64,000 nt of DNA from Bisporella sp. PMI_857 (lineage: Eukaryota; Ascomycota; Leotiomycetes; Helotiales; Helotiaceae). This document shows, one piece after another, positions 4,752 through 61,432 of this stretch. Below the pieces are notes generated by a model. That model saw only the letters and a program-made list of their open reading frames with translations, was not told where the DNA came from and did no database searches. The stretch's first letter is position 1, and each line of letters opens with the position of its first letter. The stretch lies in contig JAJSPD010000104.1 of NCBI GenBank assembly GCA_021307315.1, positions 1 through 64,000 of the forward strand. Reading direction: 5' to 3'. The position numbers and the translations under genes are program-made.

Positions 4752-5582
4752 TCACCAGACTGAAAACGTCGAAAGTCCACTCGTGCTTCCTTCTATATCA
4801 TCATCCTTCAAATTATGGAATACAGCAACGGTCTCAAAGTCCTCATTCGCATCTTCATCGTCATTTCCAGTGCCGAAAAGTGCACCCGCACTTCGATCAT
4901 CCTTCATCTTGACCTTGTTGCTCCTATGCTTCCAATACGTAAACTCTCTAATACGATAAGCAAAGTCGCAATCCTCTTCGACCTTTAACCCCGAAACTGT
5001 CTCCTTAGATCTATGATCCTGTCCCTCGACTGTCACCTCCGTCCCAGATCCTCCCTGAGGAGCAGCCGTAATACCAGCGCCTGCCGAATCTTGTTGCGAA
5101 GTTTCTTCATCAATGCTAAGTTTCTTCGCCGACGCAACACCGATTATCATGTATAGTGTCTTCGAGAAGTTACAATCTTTGATATAGTCCTGTACCCCAG
5201 CGAGCTCCACACTAGCACGCATATACTCTTTGTCTGGCAAAAATATTTTCGCCTTGATATCCAACGCATCAACAATCGTCTTCCTATCTTTACTAAGCTT
5301 CCCATTGATACTCAACCCAGCGCCTAGAAGCGGTTGCGCCACCTTGAACAGAATGCTGTCGTTGTTGGACACTTCTGCTCGTATGGTGCGTTGAACGGCC
5401 GCAGATTCGTCGAGGATGTATTTAGGGTTTATTTCCATCGCATCGAGCCGATTTAGACGGGTTTCCGGCTCTTCAGGGTCAGACAGGATGGCGCCGAGGG
5501 CGATGAGTTGGCCGGGAGCCTTGGGGTAGCGGGTGACGAGCCATTTCATCTTCCCCGTTAGTTTCCCTGAGGTTTGTGACAT
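4752..5582 (-). CDS. Gasdermin-like protein of the fungal RCD-1/HET-Q1 type
   Basis: One intact exon, 276 residues, close to known fungal gasdermins (about 240-280). The N-terminal part contains SDPEEPETRLNR (residues 34-45). The middle is amphipathic, beta-rich sequence, including a Gly/Ala-rich patch (QPLLGAGLSINGKL). The stretches TLYMIIGVASAKKLSI and, after a loose Gly/Ser/Thr-rich loop, DFAYRIREF match the paired strands seen in animal gasdermins (LYVVT... and ...LAFRVAQ). From about residue 224 the chain becomes a short acidic tail rich in D/E, G and S, the kind of autoinhibitory end that fungal proteases remove. In this family the freed N-terminal fragment oligomerises into plasma-membrane pores and kills the cell. 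The neighbouring minus-strand gene encodes a subtilisin-domain protein, the usual genomic partner. The call rests on motif pattern, size and context, and a structure prediction would settle it. Confidence 0.78.
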   Translation of the reverse strand: MSQTSGKLTGKMKWLVTRYPKAPGQLIALGAILSDPEEPETRLNRLDAMEINPKYILDESAAVQRTIRAEVSNNDSILFKVAQPLLGAGLSINGKLSKDRKTIVDALDIKAKIFLPDKEYMRASVELAGVQDYIKDCNFSKTLYMIIGVASAKKLSIDEETSQQDSAGAGITAAPQGGSGTEVTVEGQDHRSKETVSGLKVEEDCDFAYRIREFTYWKHRSNKVKMKDDRSAGALFGTGNDDEDANEDFETVAVFHNLKDDDIEGSTSGLSTFSVW

Positions 5583-5932
5583 TTTGGATTTTTAGTTAAG
5601 GTACTGGGTGGAGAGGTTGTATTGTGATGGCAGTAAACTCTGGTAGACGCGTGCAGTTTTGGTGTGGCTGTGTCCTCAAGTTGGCAACCAAATATCTGGA
5701 ACAGCCTAGAGCCTGCTCCGCCCCTCTGCCTGCACTACTGCGAGGCTTTTCTTTTACGTTGGAAACGAAGGTTATGCTACAGCTATGATTGGATACTGGA
5801 GGCGAAGCTAATGGTTGCATATGCATGGGCTTAAGTGCAGCGAGTAGGAGGCGCATTTTCATGATCGGATTGTTCCGAAAATAAAAGGTGTATTAAGCTG
5901 TGGGGACGCACAGTAGAATGAGTCCAGTCAAG
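5583..5932. other. Intergenic between protease and gasdermin genes
   Basis: 350 bases between the protease stop and the gasdermin ATG, both on the minus strand. It must hold the protease 3' end and the gasdermin promoter. No clear TATA box or structured element was recognised. Confidence 0.4.
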
Positions 5933-8900
5933 CTATCTTTGCAAAGCCCTGCATATCTCCTCCCATGCATACTTTGCTGTCGCGCTGGGGTCTATTTCTT
6001 GCATTTGGGTCGGCTCGTATTGGCTCCAAAGCAATTGAGGCCGTATCCAGTAATAATCCTCGACCTCAGTGCAAATGTGTTTCAACAGAGTTCTCATACT
6101 CCAAAGTTCTTGAAGTCTTACTAGACCTACCTTATCTTCGACATCTTTTTTTTTCTCCTGGTCAACAGCATCTTGTCGTGTGAATGCCATCAAAAGCGCA
6201 GCAATTGCAGTGGCTACAGGCGTTGCTATGGACGTACCACTCATGGTTCGAAATCCCCGCCTTTGGATACAGGCCAGTGTGAGCATACCCTTTCTCCAGT
6301 TACCATAAAATTGACTGTCCCAGAATGGGGTTTAGGGGTGAATTTCGAATAATACGTCCCAAGATCGATCGAAGAATGAACACAGATTGCTCTCTCAGGA
6401 TCTCTTGCTGGCCATGCAACTCTTTCATGATTACCGAAATTTGACGCTGCGGCAAAAATCACTATATGATGGTCTCGCGCTTTCTTTAGAGCCTGATCGA
6501 GCTTTGGATCCCAGATCTTGTAGCCAAAGGACATATTGATAAGGTGAACTCCGTGCCCAATAGCCCATTCCATTGCCTGTTCGATTTTAAGAGTCACGGT
6601 AGTAAAGAATTTTCGATGGGAACAACTCTACCTTTTCAACTCTGCTAGGATAGACCTTCTTGGTATCCACTGAGGACTTCAGCTTTTCGTTCGCTTCATT
6701 TGCTTTAGAGGCTGATGGACTTCTGCCATAACGTTCATCTCCTTCACACACTCGCGCTATGTAAAGCTCGGCCGCTGGTGCAAGCTGTAGAATGATTCCA
6801 GCGACATGAGTACCATGACCGTCGATATCTGTGACATCCTCGACGTCTTTTCGGTCGTCGCAAAAGTTTTGGCATGCCTTAATGCGCTTGATCTGCTCCA
6901 CTTCGCCCCTAACGGGGCTGATTGTCCCACTTCTTTTGGGCTTCGAGCGAGGATATTGGAAATCTGGGTGGGTCCGGTCAATACCAGTATCAAAAATGGC
7001 AACCTTGACAGGCTCATCAGATAATGTATGCTGAAAGCGGCTTCCATAGATCTGCGATAACGTTTTGAATGTCCTACCCCACTCCAACGATCTAGCCACG
7101 TCAGTTTGTAATAATGGAGTCATTGAATGAAGATATCACTCAACTCACGCAGATTCTTGCAAATCTGACTCCTCGGTATCGAAGCTTCCGAGCAGTCTGC
7201 CTCCAGCTTCATCAGAGTCAGGCTCTGATTCTGTTTCTGAAAGTGACAAGGCGTCTACACCGCTCGTACGCTTGCCATGATGCTGTAGGTGTTGGATGGC
7301 TATGGTGGGGGAAACTTCTTGGCAGACAGCCTCTTTTGCCTCTACTCCTATGGTTTGAAGGAACACATTCTCTTTCTTAATAATGGGTAGGCAAGCCTCC
7401 CGTTGGAGCCTCGAGACACAAGCTGACTGTGAATTGGAGAGGTCGATGGATGGCGGTGGGTGATTGTTAGGTTCTAGACTTATGGCTTGTCTAGCTGCCC
7501 CCGGTACTGGAGAGTGAGATGTTGTTGATAGGAGTAAGTCAGAGACTTGTGGCAATGCTAACAAGATCCCATCCTGGAGATGCAGATCTCTTGGGCCATG
7601 GGGATCTAGCAATGACCTGTTCTCTCTAGTCCTCTTACCATTTATCTTGGTAGATATTGGTTCTTTGCTGAATAACTGAAGATTACGTTCCAAAGGCTGA
7701 ACAATCTTTTTGAAAATGGTCGTCCGTATCCGAACCTCCTCGTCCAGACCTCTTTCGTTCTTGACAAACTTCTGGAATTTTAAGCATCCTTCTATTGCTT
7801 CTTTATAGCTGTCACTGAGACTTCCTGTGTTTATTTGGTTAAAATTTTCCATTAGCGTCTTGTATGGACTGAAATCTCCGGTCTTTGTAGTTGCAACAGG
7901 AAGCCTCTCCCCATTTGCGAGCTCCAGCAAGAACTGACCGAACGATAAGAGTAATGGATACTTGTCAAAATGACGCCGCTTAGGAAGGCTAGGCGGACTA
8001 TCAGAAATTATGCAGGATATGAACGGATTGTGGATATTGCACAATTTGCCACCGTCTTTGGGTTTCTCACACAAAAAAAAAGGTTTTCTGAAGTCCATAA
8101 GGTCTGGATCCAAGGCCCGTTGTGCAATTGAAGCAGACTTTGAGCGAGATTAAGCGCTAGTATCCACCTGTCTTTGAGATGAAATCCACGCAAGTCTCTC
8201 AGAAATCCACACTCAATGAGTTGCGACATGGTTATATTGGGAAGCGCTTCCGGGTATAAAGGTTGTTGGTCGTCGCAACACTTGTACTGGAAACTTTCTT
8301 CGTAAACATGAATATGAAGCATACAACTATAGTCGTTTGCAATCTGCACCGTTTGGCAAATATCTTCGGGGAGTATGTCATCCTCGGCATCTGACCTGGA
8401 ATGGCTGTGAAGCAGTCAGGATAAATATCAAAGGAGTAGATTTCTTTATTATCACCTTTTGTAGATCACACGGCAAAGGACTTCTTGCCAAAAGCCCTGT
8501 TTCGGACACGATGATAGAAGAATGTCAAACTCGGTATGTTCATCCTGTAGATTGGGAGGCTTTACACCTTTCAAATTTAGCATTACCGAGTGTGTAGATA
8601 ATTTACAAGATCCTAAATTGTGTACCAACGCCTTGAATAGCTTTTGGGAAGAACCCCAGAAGGAAGGGTTGAATTTTGTTTGGAGCCATGGCATGGGGGT
8701 GTTCGAGGTAGATCTACCGTTTGTCTTTGACTTTGAAACAGCTGATCTATCCGTACCACTTTTACTCATTTCCGCCATTAACCGCTTGTTGAAGTTCTCA
8801 ACGCTGGCTAAAATATTCCTGAGATTGGCAGGGTCTTGGTACAAACAGAGAAATTTCAGATACTCCTTCACATCAAAAACGTTGGTAATGGAGCTCTGGA

Positions 8901-9339
8901 TCATAAGGCTCAAAGCATTGAGTTTTAGGAGTTTTTGATTGGAATTTCTGATCTGCAACTTGGTGTTAGAGGTCCCCGAAGTTATGAAATATGGGTCTAT
9001 TGGATGGAGCACAATTATTGTTTTACTTACGGTGGCGACATTGGCGTATTCCAAGATTTGATCATCCACAAGTTCTTGCAGTATTAATAAGAAGGGTCGT
9101 AAATCATCAGCGATAAAGAGAGCGAATCCATCCAAGGTATCAAAATGCTCCATTCGGACATAAGCTGGAATCTCCAACATACAGGCTTTGATCAAATCCC
9201 CAGTGTTCTCGATAGTAGTTTCTGCGGAGACATCATCTTGGTTGCCAAGTGCAACTTCCCACGGAATATCAGAGGCGAACAAGGGCTGCAAAGATGTGAA
9301 CAGCTGCCATAAGTCTGATTCGTTCGAAGATGTCTGCAT
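5933..9339 (-). pseudogene. HET-Q2-like DUF7580 + subtilisin (S8) protease, with two apparent frame breaks
   Basis: Exons read on the minus strand: 9339-8456, 8395-7149, 7091-6632 and 6576-5933, with introns of 60, 57 and 55 bp and good GT/AG sites. An alpha-helical N-terminal region is followed by a segment matching the fungal DUF7580 domain (RWILALNLAQSLLQLHNGPW, later YPLLLSFGQFLLEL), a Ser/Glu-rich linker, and an S8 peptidase domain. Its triad is visible: Asp in VAIFDTGID (about 6990), His in DGHGTHVAG (about 6816), Ser in SGTSIATP (about 6231), plus the oxyanion Asn in AASNFGN. Two places need a change of frame that no GT-AG intron explains: the nine-base T run (plus-strand A run 8073-8081) inside DUF7580, and a four-base G run (plus-strand C run 6255-6258) just before the catalytic Ser. 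Either the gene is a recent pseudogene or these are homopolymer errors in the assembly. An intact product would be the expected activator of the adjacent gasdermin. Confidence 0.72.
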
Positions 9340-12900: not shown

Positions 12901-14945
12901 AACTGCTCTCAGTATGTAAATCTTGTATAACCTCGATTCTTCCGCTGCTAACGCAGACTCAGGTCTTGGCGATTCAGGTTCTTGGGTGGTACAAGGTTCT
13001 CGATTGTGTGGCTTTCTAATTGCAGGTTCAGACTCACCACCGTGCGGTTACATGGTTACTATCGAAGACTGCTTTAGAGATATCAAATCATTATTTGGAG
13101 AGAACTCATCAATTTCGATTACTGTGAGTCGCTCTCTTTAGTCGAATTCTTAACAATCGATAGCCTCTTGCTACGCAAGTCATCTGATGGACTCTGACCA
13201 TATCATAGAAAATATCTGGCTCACCGTATCTTCGATCTACTCTTCAGAAACTTGATAGGAGCATACGTGAAATCCATGAAATCTCAAGAACCGATTTGGT
13301 CACGATTCACGTTCAAACGAGATTTGAAAGCCTTTTTGCAACATATCACTTATCAGGTGATGGCAGGGCAGAATGTATCGCACTGAACAATGATAATCGC
13401 GTTTTTGCTGTCGCTTCCCTATTCAAACCGTTTATTGCTGTTGGCATTGCTCGAATAATTGACGACTTGTCAATCTCTCTGAATGGCAATCACAAACAGT
13501 ACGCAGACCTCCGAGGGAGTTGGGAGAAAACATTTACAGAGGTTTTCAATCACTTTAGCGATGTCAAAATAGCACCTTTAGCGGGAGATCCGACCGTGGA
13601 GAATCTTCTCGTCCATTACAAAGGCGTAGACAATATGACTCATATTCTTTTCGCGCCTGACGGGTCGCCTCTTTTGTCTCAAAATGACTTTCGGGATATA
13701 GTGTCTCAATTTACGATCGACACAAGAAAAAAGCATAATAACAACACAATTTGGGCGACCTGTTCAAATGAGAACTATATTCTACTTGCTCTCCTTATCC
13801 AAGTTGTATCTAAAATGTCTTTGCCAGACTTTTTAAAGAAGTACGTTTTCGAACCTCTTGGAATGGAACACATTTACATGACGGAGGATGAATTAAAAAC
13901 CTTAGAGTATAAGCTGCTTGCGAAACCATACACAGTGTCAGCAAATGGGGTTAGCCATCTCGTCGTTTCCAACCATATTTCTTACTTTGCCGATACGATA
14001 AAGTTCGCTGTTGCTAGCGGTTATATTTCCGTTGGTGATTACGGAATATTTTTCCAAGCAATTTTCCAAGCACTATTCGAAAAGCCAAAAGCCCCGTGGT
14101 TCAATGAAAGATTTGCTAAACGCTTACTTACTACATCTTGCATAATCGATGGGCAAAATGGTGGGTACACACCGTGCGGAATAATGACACAATTATACGA
14201 CCGTTGGCCTGGATCCCATTCTTTCAACCAATCAATATGTCAAAACAGCCTATACAAAGACTTTATCTTAGGAAAGCGTCCCAATGCAAAAGCAATTAAA
14301 GCTCGGTATCTTGCTGGATCTGCGACTGGTTGGACTTCTTCTGCTTACCTTATGCCAGAACAAGAGGCCTTTATCATTGTTTTGACTAACACTAGCGGAG
14401 CTCTAGATACATCAGATCTTATCTCCAAGCTATGGCTGTCCGAGATATTTGACTTACAGCCAGCTAAATACATAAACGGCAAACCTGTACCTGCTTTTTT
14501 GGGTCCAGACACGACTCCGCCAGACAAAAGATCTGAAGTTCATTACGTTGAACTAGCGCGTCTAATTTATGCCGAAAACTCAGCGGCTTTCCAACAGCTT
14601 GAAGCAGAAGACTCACTTCCAGATACTCGAGCTTCAGACTTCCCGAATATCTGCGGAACCTATGTCAATATCAAAATGCGCCAGTCTTTACAAGTTTTTG
14701 ATATGGGAGGTGCGCTTTGCATTAAGCTGATTGGCTCAAGAGAGTCAGGGCTGATGCGGTTTGTTCGTATCGGCAGAGTATTTCGCATTTGTTCTTTTCC
14801 GAGAAATAACTCGCGTAGCCTAAGTATCGACTGCTTTGGTGCGTGGCGAAACCGAGATTTTGAGTTTAAAGAAACAGATCAGGAGGCATGCCTCCTCAGA
14901 AAAGGATTAAACCTTATAGATCGATTCATTCGAACAAGCTTTTAA
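9950..14945 (+). CDS. C2H2 zinc-finger / trypsin-like / beta-lactamase-like fusion protein
   Basis: Exons 9950-10202, 10258-11029, 11077-12911, 12957-13123 and 13209-14945 join in frame with introns of 55, 47, 45 and 85 bp and give 1587 residues. Order: a helical N-terminal part, charged linker, a C2H2-type array from about residue 325 (CSFC, CLSETC, CCDVEHD, CPICNC, each with downstream His), then an acidic linker. Next is a trypsin-like fold: GGNILLNGKAYCLTTSYP (about 755-772) and GDSGSWV (about 958). The C-terminal 550 residues are beta-lactamase-like: SxxK as SLFK (Ser1079/Lys1082) and LLVHYKGVDNMTHILFAPDG. The last intron (GTGAGT donor, CTCTGAC branch, ATCATAG acceptor) joins what could be taken for two genes. 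The usual catalytic His of the protease is replaced (TTSYP instead of a TTAHP-like motif), and the Tyr of the lactamase Y-x-N motif is Cys (about 1194). It lies head-to-head with the subtilisin-domain gene. Function unknown; a role in the same recognition locus is inference. Confidence 0.72.
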
Positions 14946-48810: not shown

Positions 48811-50748
48811 TCAACAAATGCGTATCATACTACATTTTGAACCATCAAAAGCCTCCCCGTTCATAATACCATGTATGTAAGCATCACCAACGATCTGCCA
48901 CTTTCCGTCTTCCGCCTCACGAATTACCAGCGGCAGTTTACCGCCCTGAAAGAGAGCAACCGAATCACCCTCCTTGACCCATCGAGATGATATCCCCACA
49001 TAATCACGTTCCGTTCTGAATAGAGTACGATGAAAAGCCAAGATTTTAGACGGCGGTGTTCTATTTCTGTTATTGAGCATGCTCATCCCAAATTTCATTG
49101 ACTTATACATCATTTTCCCAAACCAGCCTACGCCGGCAGCGACTTTGTAAGCGGTCCCGGAGTCACTATTCCTAATCTCTTCGATGCGATCCCCTGTGTA
49201 ATCAGTAACAGATCGAAGGTCCCTGAATGGCTTGTACCATTTCTCAAATGCAGCTTTGGTTTGCTGTTCATCTCCATGTGGGTAGCTGCCCGCGTACAGT
49301 GTCTTCCAGTATAAATCCCAAGCCGCCTCGCCGGTGAAGTATGTAGTGTTGTTAGGTACGCCACAGATATCTTCCCATTTTGGGAAGACATCGGTGGACT
49401 TTTTGATCAGCATGTTGATTTCTAGGAAGGGGTGTCCTGGTTGTGTCTCGTAGTAGTCTTTCTCAAGGATTCCACCCGTTGTCGCAACTTTGTCTAGCAC
49501 ATATCCCGAAAGCATAATGTTCTTTTTATCGTCCACAAGTTCGACTACTGGGTAACTGGATCCAGTTGCTGAGGCCCATGTACAAGCCCACCGGTGCTCT
49601 CCGAACGAGAGAGCTGACAAAAACCGGGGCGATAATGGTTTAGCGTGGTCCTGATAGGCCCAGTCAGGCACCCAAGTAGGAAGTTGACTATGCGCCGGGA
49701 GGCAGTCCTGCCCGCTAAAGGAGAGGACATCCAGGTTTCCCTCAGTAGTAATACAGTCGATGACGGATTGTGTATAGACTTCAACTACGTCTAGATTGTA
49801 GTCCGGCTGCAGTTCAAGCACCGCCAGATCCGAAGGACTAAATAAGCTGTAAAGGCCGAACACTTTATCTCGCGGATCCGTTGCAAGAAAAATTCGGAAG
49901 GAGGCCAAAAGGTCAAGCGGCCGAGGGCATCGGTTACTGGCAAGATCCCGACGAGCTCGCTCAATATTCTGCATCGAACTGTACATCTCTGGTAGCGTAG
50001 ATGAGAAATAATCCAAATCAATTGCATAGCTAACGGCGCGATAAAAGTCCTCCCAGCTCGCCGAGTTATTCCCACATAACACCACCGCGCGGGTAGCGAG
50101 AGCAACCTCCTGAATGATCCAGGTACGTAGAAACCAGGAGCTGTGGAGCAGCAAGATCAAGCTCTTGATAATCGCATTCCACCTTTTATCATTAAGGTCC
50201 CCGTTCGTCGTATAGTCAGGCCGAAGTACATGTCTAACCCAGTCCTTGGTACCGTGGCGAATAGGTAGCTCAGTGCGTTTGAGATTCTTCTGTGCTGCCT
50301 CCAGAAGTGGCGGGATAGGCCAGAGGTCTTTACCGTCAACCTCGATAGGCCCGCCCAGCCAGACAGCGACAGAGGACGCAAGGCGGTAGATATCTTTCAT
50401 CATCCTAACCTGGGAGCCGCGCTCCTCAATGTCATTCTGGTTGATACATATTGCGTCTGCCCAGATCAGCCGCGATTGATTCGGCAACTGAAGACGGCGG
50501 AGGGCAGAGTTTAAGTTCTTTGTAATTTCCAATCCTCCGTATCCATTACACTTAATCGGAAATTTCTCGCTTGCATCACCCCAGCAGTAGCTTAATGCCT
50601 CGTAAGTGGGAAGTCGAGTGACATGCGCGACTTCAAGGTCGCAGACAAGATCGGTCTTGGCGCCAGGATAGACGCGTAGCAGGCGGATCGTACCAGGTTG
50701 GAGTGTACTGTAAGGATATCCTGGCTGTGAAATCATTGACGCCTCCAT
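48811..50748 (-). CDS. HET-domain (heterokaryon incompatibility) protein
   Basis: Single exon, 645 residues. The three HET-domain blocks are present: YEALSYCWGD (about residue 50), LIWADAICINQND with the following IYRLASSVAVWLG (about 94-135), and RTWIIQEVALATRAVVLCG (about 215). The C-terminal part ends with the usual PLVIREAEDGKWQIVGDAYI and GIMNGEAF block. HET domains trigger cell death when incompatible hyphae fuse, generally after a signal from a partner protein; the domain has a TIR-like fold. No second domain such as NACHT or WD40 is attached, so this is the stand-alone type. Intronless, with a clean ATG. Confidence 0.92.
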   Translation of the reverse strand: MEASMISQPGYPYSTLQPGTIRLLRVYPGAKTDLVCDLEVAHVTRLPTYEALSYCWGDASEKFPIKCNGYGGLEITKNLNSALRRLQLPNQSRLIWADAICINQNDIEERGSQVRMMKDIYRLASSVAVWLGGPIEVDGKDLWPIPPLLEAAQKNLKRTELPIRHGTKDWVRHVLRPDYTTNGDLNDKRWNAIIKSLILLLHSSWFLRTWIIQEVALATRAVVLCGNNSASWEDFYRAVSYAIDLDYFSSTLPEMYSSMQNIERARRDLASNRCPRPLDLLASFRIFLATDPRDKVFGLYSLFSPSDLAVLELQPDYNLDVVEVYTQSVIDCITTEGNLDVLSFSGQDCLPAHSQLPTWVPDWAYQDHAKPLSPRFLSALSFGEHRWACTWASATGSSYPVVELVDDKKNIMLSGYVLDKVATTGGILEKDYYETQPGHPFLEINMLIKKSTDVFPKWEDICGVPNNTTYFTGEAAWDLYWKTLYAGSYPHGDEQQTKAAFEKWYKPFRDLRSVTDYTGDRIEEIRNSDSGTAYKVAAGVGWFGKMMYKSMKFGMSMLNNRNRTPPSKILAFHRTLFRTERDYVGISSRWVKEGDSVALFQGGKLPLVIREAEDGKWQIVGDAYIHGIMNGEAFDGSKCSMIRIC

Positions 50749-51276
50749 TGCATGAGATTGATTATTTTCTAAAAGATTGGTTTTTGTTCTGGCGTAACTT
50801 CACAATCAATTTTGGATGTGAAGCCACTTTGGGGCTGAAACGTGTCGCCTTTTTGGCAGCCCTGCTGGGCTCATACGGTTTGTCGACGGACGTGCGATCA
50901 CTACGATTTCTAGGATTTCCGCGGCCGACGGTGAGAATAAAAGTAAAGGAGACTTCTTTTTGTGAAACTTGGATCGGCCCATCATGCTTTTTTGCTGGCG
51001 ACACTAAGTTTTGACAATGGGCTAGCATACACCTGGTCCACCACTCGAGGCATCTGTATTTATATTCTCTGTCGTACTCTCTTCACCTATGGTCTCTGAT
51101 AAAACAAGCCCAAGTGTATCCACGAGCCGACCATCTTTGAAACAGAGAATTCCATAATCTCGGACGATGTGACAGCCCTTGACTATTTATGTATAAATAT
51201 TCTGATTAATTTTGATTATTTTAATTTGGTGTGATTTGGTTTTGACTATTCTATTTTTATTTTTATTTTTGTTTTA

Positions 51277-54926: not shown

Positions 54927-55646
54927 CAGTTCCCTAAGGCTTTGCAATTATCAAGATAACACAAGACAGACTCGTCTCGATAATAGGATATGTGGCCGTA
55001 CAATGCAAACCAAAGACGTAGGTGATCTTGAAATGTGTGGGTATACTGTCTAATTAGAAGATAAAGGCAAGGAAGAGAGAAGTCTAGAAGACTTGGGTGT
55101 GACAGCTCAAACTAAAAAACAAATGGACAAACGACGATTTATTCTATCTCTCAGAATACAAAGGCAAGAAAGGAACCAGAGTGTGAGAGGAGGTAGGCTA
55201 TATATAGTCGCGCCGGTCATAGGCCAGCGAGGAACGGGCTAAGGCTGGCTGCAAGGCCGCCCGCATGCAAAAGCTCGTACCTAAGAACATCCAAAAATCA
55301 TACTTTTAACCACTATACAAGGTATAATGAGCCCAGTACTAGATGAAAGAGCTTATTTTAAGGAGCCTAACGATGCATAATTCATTTGTTTAGGATCAAA
55401 ATTGAGCTTACAAGTGGTTAACAGGTCAAATATGGTGCGCACAAGAAATGGTGCACGCGCCAGCTTTTACCGCGATTTGCGCCTTTCTTCGCAGGTCTGC
55501 ATAACGATATCTTTTATCAGTAATGTTTTTAGGCTTCCGTTTTTTGAGGTTTGACCGCTTTACAGTTGATTAACTTGACTTTCATCCTGCCACAGCCTGT
55601 GTCTTCTTATTTCTATTCTACGATATTCTTTCCCGGCATAGCCAAC

Positions 55647-57389
55647 ATGTGCGAACCTTGCCTTGGAAAATTCGAATATGAGCCCCTCGACGATGATTCA
55701 GGTGCATTCCGTCTTCTTGTCCTTGCCCCAGGAACCTGGGACACACCGCTCGACTGTACCTTAATCGAAGACTCCCGCGAGGCCAACACTTTTCCCTACG
55801 AAGCCTTATCATACACATGGGGTGATTCAAGTGCGTCGCACAGCATCACACTCAATAATGGCTTATTCCTCGTTACGACGAACCTATACCTTGCTCTACG
55901 AAACCTTCGACAGGCAGACGTGGAAAGGATTTTGTGGGTTGATGCGATATGCATAAATCAAGCATGCCCGCTTGAAAAGACACAACAGGTCTCCCAGATG
56001 CGCAATATATACGAGGCTGCCGAAAAGGTGTTGGTATGGCTCGGAGACGGTTGTGTTGAAACTCACCGTGCTATCTCTTGGATGTCTAGCCATTTTGAGG
56101 GGGATGAACAGGGCTTGGAACACTTGACGAAGGCTGCAAGGACTATTATGGACGGCTGTCCTGAATCTGCTATCGATTTTGGCGATGATGGATTGGATAG
56201 TGGAGAAGAAAGAACCCAAGATCGTCGGCTCCAACTGCTCAAAGGCTTCAATAATCTTCTCAGCCGACCATGGTGGTCGCGGGTCTGGGTCATCCAAGAG
56301 GTTTTCGTTAACTCGGACATAATAATCATGTGCGGGCGTTCCGAAGTGTCGTGGACCACCTTCATGGCTTTTGTGCAGGGAATCTATAACAGCAAGCTTC
56401 TCTTACGAGCATCTCTGGATGAAAGCACCAAGTATCGTCGATCAATTGATAGAGCCTTTTCACGACAGCAATTTGCCTGCCATACCGCGCAGAAGATGGG
56501 CGATCTATTGCTTCGGCATCGCGGTCTTAATGCCTCGGACCCTAGGGACAATACATATGCATTACTTGGTCTTGCTTCAGACATGTCAACTAGCAAATTC
56601 TTGCCTGACTACTCGAAGTCGACAAATGAAGTCTACAAACACCTCACAAGAGAGATCGTGAAACGGCACAATAACCTCACGATCATCTGTGCCAGCCAAC
56701 CATCTGCAACATCACGGAGCAGCCTGCCATCCTGGACGCCGGACTGGAGCTCCCCATGGATGTATTTCTGCTTAGCTCGAGCACCATACAACGCTTGCAG
56801 CAGTTCAACTGCCGATGTAACATTCTCTAAAGACCTTTCCAGGATGAGAGCCACAGGGCGGAACTTAGCCACCATCGAGAGTGTAAGCGCTACATACGAG
56901 TCTTCAGGGCCGACTTTAATTAATTGGCTCAAACGTGTTCACAGCTGGCGCACTTTAATTGGGGACTGGGACGCCGACTCACGTCCATTTGCATTCGATA
57001 ATTTCCGCCAGATCTACTCGCGGCACATCATGGGTTGTGAGCCGGCATACCCGGTAAATCTATCTGCCAAGACGCCGAAACGGGCGAAGAAGAGCTCGAA
57101 GAAAGACGTTATGAAGTTTGAAACACATATGAATAGTATATGTTGGAACCGAAAACTTGCTACATTGAAATGGTATGGATTGCCGCTAGAAGGACTAGTT
57201 CCAGCCAATGCAGTAGCAGGAGATAATATTATTGTGCTTCATGGATGTAGGGTGCCTGTTGTTCTAAGAAGAAGTGGAGCGGAGGATTGGAATTTTGTGG
57301 GAGATGCCTATCTTGCTGGATATATGCATGGGCAGGCTTTCAATGGATATCTGTCAACTACTAGCGTAGAAGTGTTTTCAATTCGGTAA
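55647..57389 (+). CDS. HET-domain (heterokaryon incompatibility) protein
   Basis: Single exon, 580 residues from MCEPCLGKFEYEPL; upstream in-frame sequence has no ATG. HET blocks: YEALSYTWGDSSASHSI (about residue 51), RILWVDAICINQACPLEKTQ with IYEAAEKVLVWLGDG (about 93-130), and RVWVIQEVFVNSDIIIMCG (about 210-228). The C-terminal half has the usual LPSWTPDWSSPW and VPVVLRRSGAEDWNFVGDAY block. The role is presumed to be in incompatibility-type cell death. Independent of the HET gene at 48811: identity is limited to family motifs. A 22-base A tract starts 22 bases after the stop codon. Confidence 0.92.
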   Translation: MCEPCLGKFEYEPLDDDSGAFRLLVLAPGTWDTPLDCTLIEDSREANTFPYEALSYTWGDSSASHSITLNNGLFLVTTNLYLALRNLRQADVERILWVDAICINQACPLEKTQQVSQMRNIYEAAEKVLVWLGDGCVETHRAISWMSSHFEGDEQGLEHLTKAARTIMDGCPESAIDFGDDGLDSGEERTQDRRLQLLKGFNNLLSRPWWSRVWVIQEVFVNSDIIIMCGRSEVSWTTFMAFVQGIYNSKLLLRASLDESTKYRRSIDRAFSRQQFACHTAQKMGDLLLRHRGLNASDPRDNTYALLGLASDMSTSKFLPDYSKSTNEVYKHLTREIVKRHNNLTIICASQPSATSRSSLPSWTPDWSSPWMYFCLARAPYNACSSSTADVTFSKDLSRMRATGRNLATIESVSATYESSGPTLINWLKRVHSWRTLIGDWDADSRPFAFDNFRQIYSRHIMGCEPAYPVNLSAKTPKRAKKSSKKDVMKFETHMNSICWNRKLATLKWYGLPLEGLVPANAVAGDNIIVLHGCRVPVVLRRSGAEDWNFVGDAYLAGYMHGQAFNGYLSTTSVEVFSIR

Positions 57390-59181: not shown

Positions 59182-61432
59182 ATGCTTTGTGATAAGTGCT
59201 CAGAAATCCATTTCAGACGGCTTCGGGAATGCGATATTCCACTAGATGAGCTCCCGGAAAAGTTCAGGTACAACTCCCAGTATCAGGGAGAAAGCGTGTA
59301 TTATTTTCACCATAAAGATAAATTCGCTCTTGAAGCCTCCGCGGACAGGGGCTGTCATTTCTGTGGAATGATATGGGGCAATCTATTTGGTTCGTTTACG
59401 GGCCACGTTGAGTACATTCCAGAATCTTTTGCAGATAAAAAAGTTTTTATTCGTCGGTCTTGGCGTCAAGCTTGGTTAGTAAAAGAAGGCGCCGACGCAC
59501 TCGAATGCACCGAGTGGCTAGTCGTCTGCTGTGAGGGCCGCAAAACATACAGCAGCTTCCATTTAAATTTACAGCGTAAGTACAGCCAAAAGAGAGAGAG
59601 AGAGTCATACACCCTAACAGGAAACAGAGCACATCCGAAGCTTTCTCTCCGCATTGACGCTTTGTTGCGATCCGAACGATCCAAGCTCCTTTAGGAACAG
59701 CATAATACCATTCTCTAGTATTGGAGGTATCAGTGATAGTTATGCTGCTAATACCAGCGAAGTTGAGCTCATGCGATGCTTTTCAATATACTCTCCTTGG
59801 TTAGATGCACGCACAAACTCTCCAGCAAACCTAATACTGGCAAAAATTTGGCTATCAAATTGCCTCCGCGATCATGAAGAGTGCTCTAGTATTTTGCTAC
59901 GTTCTATCCTTCCGCGGCGAGTTATCGATGTTTCAGATCCGGAGGCGCCATTTCTCTGCATCCCAAATGGCCAGTACGAGAGATACATGACTTTGAGCTA
60001 CAAGTGGGGAGATAGTGCAAAGTACATGACTACAACCGGAAATGAAAACCGCCATTATCAAGCAATATCATTGAAACTCCTACCCTGGACTTTTAGGGAG
60101 GCCATCTACATCACGCACTGGTTAGGAATTCGCTTCCTTTGGATTGATGCTCTCTGCATAATTCAGGATTCGATCGAAGACGTTCAGCAAGAAATTGCGG
60201 TAATGGATGAGATTTATAGGAATTCGACCCTAACTATTTTTGCCGCGGGAGGAGATAATGCAAACTCAGGGCTCTCTGTAGATCGTAACCCTTTTTGGAA
60301 CAAGCCCTGCGAATTATTCTTGAGAACTACTGCATCTGGTCACTACACCGAAGGTCATGTCACAGTTACGCTCGATCATTTTCAACCAGAAACTCTCCCA
60401 CTTTCTGAGCGTGGATGGGTTTTACAAGAAGAAATTCTCTCAAGAAGAGGACTGATCTTTAGCAATACACAACTATCATGGCGATGTTTATGTGCGACCG
60501 CATCTGAGAGAGATCCGCAATTTTTTTCATGGCAGCAAAAGTCACAATCAGGGAACCGGTCAATACAAGAACGATATCCTCGGGGCACCGATGACTTTAA
60601 CCGGCTGCGATTCTGGCTTCTGAAGAAAAATGCTATGCCAGAGCGTGACGGATTCCCTGGGAAACGTACCAATCAATTCGACGAGTAGTACAATATGGTC
60701 TCTAAATATAGCCTTCGGGCTCTGACGAAACCTTATGACGTGCTGTTCGCAATATCTGGGTTGGCGGCTGCTATGGCCAAGTTGCATAAATGCTCTTACC
60801 TATGCGGCTTGTGGAAAGAGGATCTGCAGATCGGGATTGCTTGGTACATCAAAAAGAACGACACGCCAAGACTTACTCCCACCCAACCTCAGGACCCCAG
60901 AATCCCCACTTGGCCATGGGTGTCTCAATGGGGAAAGCACATTGGCTTCCGTGACTGGGAAACAAATGCAACTCTCGAGGTTTCTAAAGGGTTGTCATTT
61001 ATATCAGCGCGCAACTTGTATCCCACTGATGTACCGAAGCTCTTTACGAGGATGAACAATATAGGTCTCACTGTTTCTGGCCCAGTCAGAAGGGCGCTTG
61101 TGGAAATGAAGAATAGACGCTACTTTTATAGAGTTGATGAAAAAGCCCGATGGGTCGCGTTGGTTAAAGATCCAAAGACCGACAAAGAGCTTGGACAGAT
61201 TGCACTTGACAATGATCCAGCGATCACGCCAGTGGATGAAATATTTTGCTTGCTCTGTACTGTACGGTGAAAGTACCATGAATGGCAATTAACTTGTCTA
61301 GCATTGGTGCCGATGGAGAAGGAGAGAGAGTATCGCCGCGTCGGACTGGCCTTTTTGAGAAATGAGGACTGGTTTGGGCCGTTAGTGCTTCGTGATCCGA
61401 ACCAGTTTCTCATGACAGTCACAATGTATTAG
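59182..61432 (+). pseudogene. HET-domain protein gene with in-frame stop codons
   Basis: Exon 59182-59575, a 52 bp intron (59576-59627), then a frame running to 61432. An N-terminal Cys pair (MLCDKCSEIHF, GCHFCGMIW) is typical of one HET subgroup. HET blocks: YMTLSYKWGDSAK, FLWIDALCIIQDSIEDVQQE with the following IYRNSTLTIFAAGG, and SERGWVLQEEILSRR. The frame is interrupted by TAG at 60686 and TGA at 61268, while HET-like sequence continues in the same frame on both sides (KYSLRALTKPYDVLFAISGL after the first, EWQLTCLALVPMEKEREYRR after the second). Each stop is one transition from a Trp codon. The second might be removed by a 45 bp intron, the first not by any I can find. Truncated after TAG, the product would still keep the HET domain. 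Confidence 0.7.

Follow-up and report, generated by a model that had tools for sequence, protein, structure and literature searches.

Fungal Gasdermins and Their Proteases

The subject of this report is a gene pair of the fungus Bisporella sp. PMI_857, consisting of a fungal gasdermin (fGSDM) and a subtilisin-type (peptidase S8) protease with a kinase-like domain. The pair occupies positions 4,752 to 9,339 of a 64,000-nucleotide stretch of contig JAJSPD010000104.1 (the window). Its closest described counterparts are HET-Q1/HET-Q2 of Podospora anserina, co-encoded clusters of a Q2L protease and a fGSDM, RCD-1 of Neurospora crassa, and the HeLo/HELL-kinase (MLKL-like) proteins of fungi.

Background on these systems is taken here from three reviews. 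HET-Q1 and HET-Q2 are idiomorphs, that is, different genes at one locus (PMC12881547). HET-Q2 is a 388-aa S8 protease (PMC10989679), and HET-Q1 loses ~5 kDa, likely through a cut at F238 (PMC12881547). RCD-1 is controlled by the encounter of two allelic variants, not by cleavage (PMC12881547). Roughly 80% of fungal gasdermins adjoin a protease gene, with S8 the commonest type, and 18 architectures have been recorded that cover about one third of the sequences (reviews of Clave et al. 2022: PMC10989679, PMC12881547, PMC10197012). One of the three reviews (PMC12881547) already mentions “other predicted kinase-like domains” as fusion partners of the protease domains, and among the matches listed from the open-licence literature it was the only source of “kinase-like”. 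The open-licence literature searched yielded no paper on Bisporella together with gasdermin, nor DUF7580 as a name.

The reading preferred here, to which a probability of roughly 0.8 is given, is that the protease is likely a sensor that would cut off the acidic tail of the neighboring gasdermin; the pore-forming domain released in this way is predicted to cause cell death. Sequence and predicted fold directly support the gasdermin domain and its tail, the S8 motifs, the kinase-like DUF7580, and the pairing here and in relatives; the steps beyond homology we infer as follows. A danger signal would be received by the ~190-residue N-terminus and pseudokinase of the protease, and its reception would release the S8 domain. 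The protease would then cut the gasdermin tail near a nearly invariant F236, and the freed gasdermin domain is predicted to make pores. The role of such a system would be defense rather than allorecognition.

The Gasdermin Gene

Features of the locus are collected in Table 1. The gasdermin open reading frame (ORF), whose public gene model (P0001) begins at Met12, is homologous to the HET-Q1/RCD-1 pore domain. It matches the HET-Q1 pore (9uv9) with an E value of 1e-26 in phmmer, and at the end of the match residue 235 of the query corresponds to residue 231 of the chain. The predicted structure has a mean predicted local distance difference test (pLDDT) of 67 and a predicted template modeling score (pTM) of 0.65. 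All eight Foldseek matches with E values up to 0.001 are gasdermins, the best being 8jyz (3.3e-8), and rows 1–18 of a VIA comparison are gasdermin entries. The closest known fold to the predicted structure is that of RCD-1. A fold lacking the gasdermin N-domain, the outcome named beforehand as refuting, was thus not obtained, and the 276-residue gasdermin with a short acidic tail proposed in the initial annotation is borne out.

A Pfam-A scan of 4755–5582 listed no family, even at an E value of 10. This silence is a gap in the Pfam library and nothing against gasdermin membership; it may also be a reason why named gasdermin relatives carry the label hypothetical protein.

Beyond the pore match lies a tail whose length and charge agree with the short, ~5 kDa tails of fungal gasdermins, with 11 Asp/Glu versus a single Lys/Arg in residues 237–276. 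A C-terminal tail was detected in 30 of 31 alignment rows, the window gasdermin included, while P0032 was missed by the pattern. The tail is net acidic in all 30 rows that have one, although barely so in P0030 (8 to 7), and F236 is nearly invariant across the alignment. From sequence, the tail is presumed to be the inhibitory part that is removed by cleavage. In the gasdermin tree, 22 of 32 rows form one clade with support of 100/99, and its members include the Lecanoromycete Thelotrema, the Leotiomycete Cudoniella, and two Sordariomycete Xylaria (X. telfairii among them).

Table 1. Features of the gasdermin–protease locus, in window coordinates.
Feature	Positions	Strand	Remarks
Fungal gasdermin gene (fGSDM)	4752–5582	−	276 aa; one exon (4755–5582) plus stop 4752–4754
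Acidic C-terminal tail of gasdermin	4755–4874	−	Residues 237–276, 4.3 kDa; beyond end of HET-Q1 pore match; from composition
Intergenic stretch, protease stop to gasdermin ATG	5583–5932		350 nt
Q2L-type protease gene	5933–9339	−	ATG 9339, stop 5933–5935; ~1050 aa
Protease exons	9339–9031, 8952–8456, 8404–7149, 7091–6632, 6576–5933	−	Introns of 78, 51, 57, and 55 nt
DUF7580 (PF24476), kinase-like	7676–8667	−	Pfam match; without HRD Asp and DFG Asp
Peptidase S8 (PF00082)	6179–7009	−	Motifs Asp (AIFDTGI), His (DGHGTHV), Asn (AAASN), Ser (GTSIATP)
Frame break 1	8073–8081	−	Frame shifts inside nine-base homopolymer within DUF7580, at SENLFF
Frame break 2	6255–6258	−	Frame shifts at four-base homopolymer just ahead of catalytic Ser

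The Protease and Its Kinase-Like Domain

The gasdermin had been placed 350 bases downstream of a same-strand gene for a DUF7580 and S8 protease, and this arrangement was recovered, with the protease stop at 5933–5935 and both Pfam domains matched. All four protease intron junctions are also present in the public model P0035. The encoded order is a ~190-residue N-terminus, DUF7580, a linker, and peptidase S8. DUF7580 was matched in three pieces (E values of 9.9e-11, 1e-16, and 3.1e-22), as was S8 (4.7e-10, 5.8e-7, and 5.5e-6), each beyond the Pfam cut-off, and a profile of the protease family matched subtilisins at 1.2e-23. All four S8 catalytic motifs are encoded in the DNA of the window, with Ser in a different frame; they lie within one protein in all eight of the DUF7580-S8 relatives (P0036–P0043).

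The predicted fold of DUF7580 contains a kinase C-lobe. Foldseek ranks 1–19 are all kinases, VIA gave kinase folds in all 50 rows among the matches listed, and DUF7580 and Pkinase match the same stretch in three of ten scanned ORFs. In an alignment of relatives (P0036, P0037, and P0052), the HRD and DFG positions are without Asp, and the corresponding segments of the window's own DUF7580 read TSENLF and IHNPF. Because these Asp residues are absent, the modeled domain looks like a kinase fold of the pseudokinase type, and the protease is therefore most likely a pseudokinase-bearing Q2L sensor.

The N-terminus of the protease is helical in a low-confidence predicted model. When compared by hhalign with a five-row HeLo alignment, it gave a probability of 0.83%, versus 99.7% for the positive and 0.33% for the negative control, in a comparison of only five sequences per side.

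DUF7580 was also seen in other settings in the genome. One ORF (L038:1384–3174; C68:668554–670221) encodes a HeLo domain and, after it, a stretch with matches to DUF7580 as well as to Pkinase, as in a MLKL-like fungal protein. Another (L036:1–2178; C13, near 127348–129513) encodes a protein kinase domain and then DUF7580, a tandem kinase-pseudokinase layout.

Pairing in the Genome and in Other Fungi

Three gasdermin protein queries found 3, 4, and 6 places in the PMI_857 genome, for a total of five gasdermins plus one doubtful piece at an E value of 0.07; distant gasdermins could have escaped these queries. The genome has 20 DUF7580 matches and 41 S8 matches, and the two domains occur together at five loci (C7:6–9 kb, C7:108–110 kb, C12, C252, and C274). 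Each of the five gasdermins adjoins one of these five loci, in same-strand, convergent, or divergent orientation. A profile made from the 34 proteins of the gasdermin search likewise finds a gasdermin at all five (E values of 1.6e-138, 2.1e-12, 8.9e-11, 2.4e-9, and 2.4e-5), although at C12 it matches only the C-terminal part in one frame. At fetched S8 loci without DUF7580 the profile had no match in any of five, these being a sample of S8 places with short flanks, one of which was ended by the contig end.

One of these pairs (L005, C7:106500–116000) lies ~100 kb off on the same contig as the window pair. A further DUF7580 match occurs on that contig at 76298–76876.

A search of other fungi with the protease gave 16 matches from 7991 scored candidates: nine DUF7580-S8 proteins, the Bisporella gene included, and seven weak S8 proteins without DUF7580. 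For seven of the nine, the contig is equal in size to that of a gasdermin match, although the printed strain names differ for one of the seven (P0037/P0015, TUCIM 5745 versus SZMC 28014). For another of the nine, from T. atroviride, the protease and gasdermin matches are on contigs of unequal size. The Cudoniella public model P0036 (one of the nine) reads on from protease into gasdermin in a single gene model, and the Scytalidium genes g12582 and g12583 are numbered consecutively. Cudoniella, Xylaria, and Trichoderma thus all have such a pair. When the DUF7580 part served as query, 12 matches were found, ten with S8 and two without (one of the latter marked partial).

Identity matrices of protease and gasdermin from nine species, including a 165-aa piece from T. 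chlorosporum, correlate with r = 0.67, a value reached by none of 10,000 permutations. This correlation fits joint inheritance of both genes, and common descent of the species predicts the same. Horizontal transfer of the pair was also considered. In both genes Xylaria appears nearer to the Leotiomycetes than to Trichoderma, yet the tree lacks resolution and no such claim is made.

Comparison With Known Systems

The Bisporella pair shares with HET-Q1/HET-Q2 a homologous pore domain, a short gasdermin tail, and an S8 protease, and probably works by the same cut. The initial annotation had called it a pair of the HET-Q1/HET-Q2 type, which holds for the protein families but not for the genetics. 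HET-Q1 and HET-Q2 are alternatives at one locus and HET-Q2 is short, whereas here the two genes are neighbors in one genome, as in a Q2L cluster, and the protease of ~1050 aa carries DUF7580.

Similarity is greatest to the co-encoded Q2L and fGSDM clusters, in which a protease, most commonly of the S8 type, adjoins the gasdermin and for which fused kinase-like domains have been mentioned. No defining difference from these was found, and the pair is a well-supported member of them; what the present locus offers is one supported gasdermin clade and a more sharply described sensor part, identified as the pseudokinase-like DUF7580. The earlier suggestion that the pair was possibly undescribed is accordingly weakened by the kinase-like protease fusions mentioned in the review passage (PMC12881547).

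RCD-1 has the fold predicted for the Bisporella gasdermin but a control without cleavage. The HeLo/HELL-kinase proteins share a kinase-like domain of the DUF7580 type; they differ in that the Bisporella output is a protease, whose N-terminus showed no HeLo similarity in the small, five-sequence test.

Frame Breaks and Alternative Explanations

The analysis went beyond the initial annotation in two respects, namely the orthologous pairs in other fungi and the frame breaks, of which the protease gene has two. The DUF7580 profile continues over the first break (to 183, then from 179), and the catalytic Ser, which lies beyond the second, is out of frame in the gene as assembled. In the public model P0035 the DUF7580 core, and with it part of the kinase-like core, is missing. 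A 180-nt GT-AG step at 8168–7989, which skips the first break, apparently accounts for this loss, and the model stops at the second break, without the Ser motif. The P0035 form was rejected as the main protease product, as the skipped stretch is kept in most relatives' models (in P0043 only in part). An intron at either break was likewise rejected: no listed GT..AG candidate joins both frames in phase, as judged by hand from a non-exhaustive list filtered by motif and length.

Since the protease frame is broken twice as assembled, the gasdermin may be an orphan in PMI_857; alternatively, the breaks may be assembly errors. There is about an even chance that they are errors and that the pair is intact and working in this strain. 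Homopolymers are a usual site of sequencing error, and both breaks fall in them; furthermore, the DNA keeps all four catalytic motifs. This explanation sits less well with other long frames of the assembly that run unbroken, among them eleven frames of at least 350 aa (18.2 kb), picked for length, in the same window. It is also at odds with the Scytalidium lignicola model P0039, which loses the family frame at the very residue of frame break 1 (a comparison of protein models only, without DNA). A random error would not predict this, and a shared departure point is not expected from two unrelated sequencing errors.

A true pseudogene beside an intact, orphan gasdermin is a tentative reading, somewhat short of an even chance. 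Such a state could give rise to a het-Q-like incompatibility gene on fusion with a strain carrying a working protease. Two separate breaks in one gene argue for it, as do the public model's loss of part of the kinase-like core and of the catalytic Ser, and the integrity of the eleven long frames, even though these were selected as long. Pseudogenization has been proposed as a route to het-Q1/het-Q2 in one review passage (PMC10197012). The homopolymer position of both breaks argues in the opposite direction, as does the remaining protease frame, which is well kept and 72% identical to that of Cudoniella.

A bolder proposal appears rather doubtful. It would have a pseudokinase switch, comparable to MLKL's regulatory half, wired one-to-one to a gasdermin-firing subtilisin as a necroptosis/pyroptosis hybrid and the sole type of gasdermin unit found in the genome. 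In PMI_857 one such protease would be genuinely dead and its gasdermin intact, which would capture the birth of a het-Q1-type incompatibility gene.

It is unlikely that the pair serves allorecognition as a het locus like HET-Q1/HET-Q2. The two protein families are the same, yet a single genome holds both genes here, the two are found jointly in further genera, het-Q1 and het-Q2 are idiomorphs, and the protease bears an additional kinase-like part. That the S8 gene and gasdermin are neighbors by chance is very improbable, with nothing found in favor of it, given the gasdermin at five of five DUF7580-S8 loci and the joint recurrence of both genes in other fungi.

Significance and Wider Window

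Which signals activate the gasdermin-controlling proteases is still to be answered, according to one review (PMC12881547). A conserved pair with a recognizable pseudokinase sensor and orthologs in Trichoderma makes the question of activation testable. Gene deletion is routine in Trichoderma. In addition, a likely fold and role are assigned to the Pfam family DUF7580, and the orphan-gasdermin possibility, if true, bears on the origin of incompatibility genes.

Elsewhere in the window are three HET-domain frames (48811–50799, 55548–57389, and 59618–60688). A defense island was considered and rejected, since three such frames are ordinary in a genome whose HET matches number at least 150 (from 150 scored out of 729 candidates). 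At 13209–14945, a frame of 578 aa encodes a serine beta-lactamase-like domain (PF00144).
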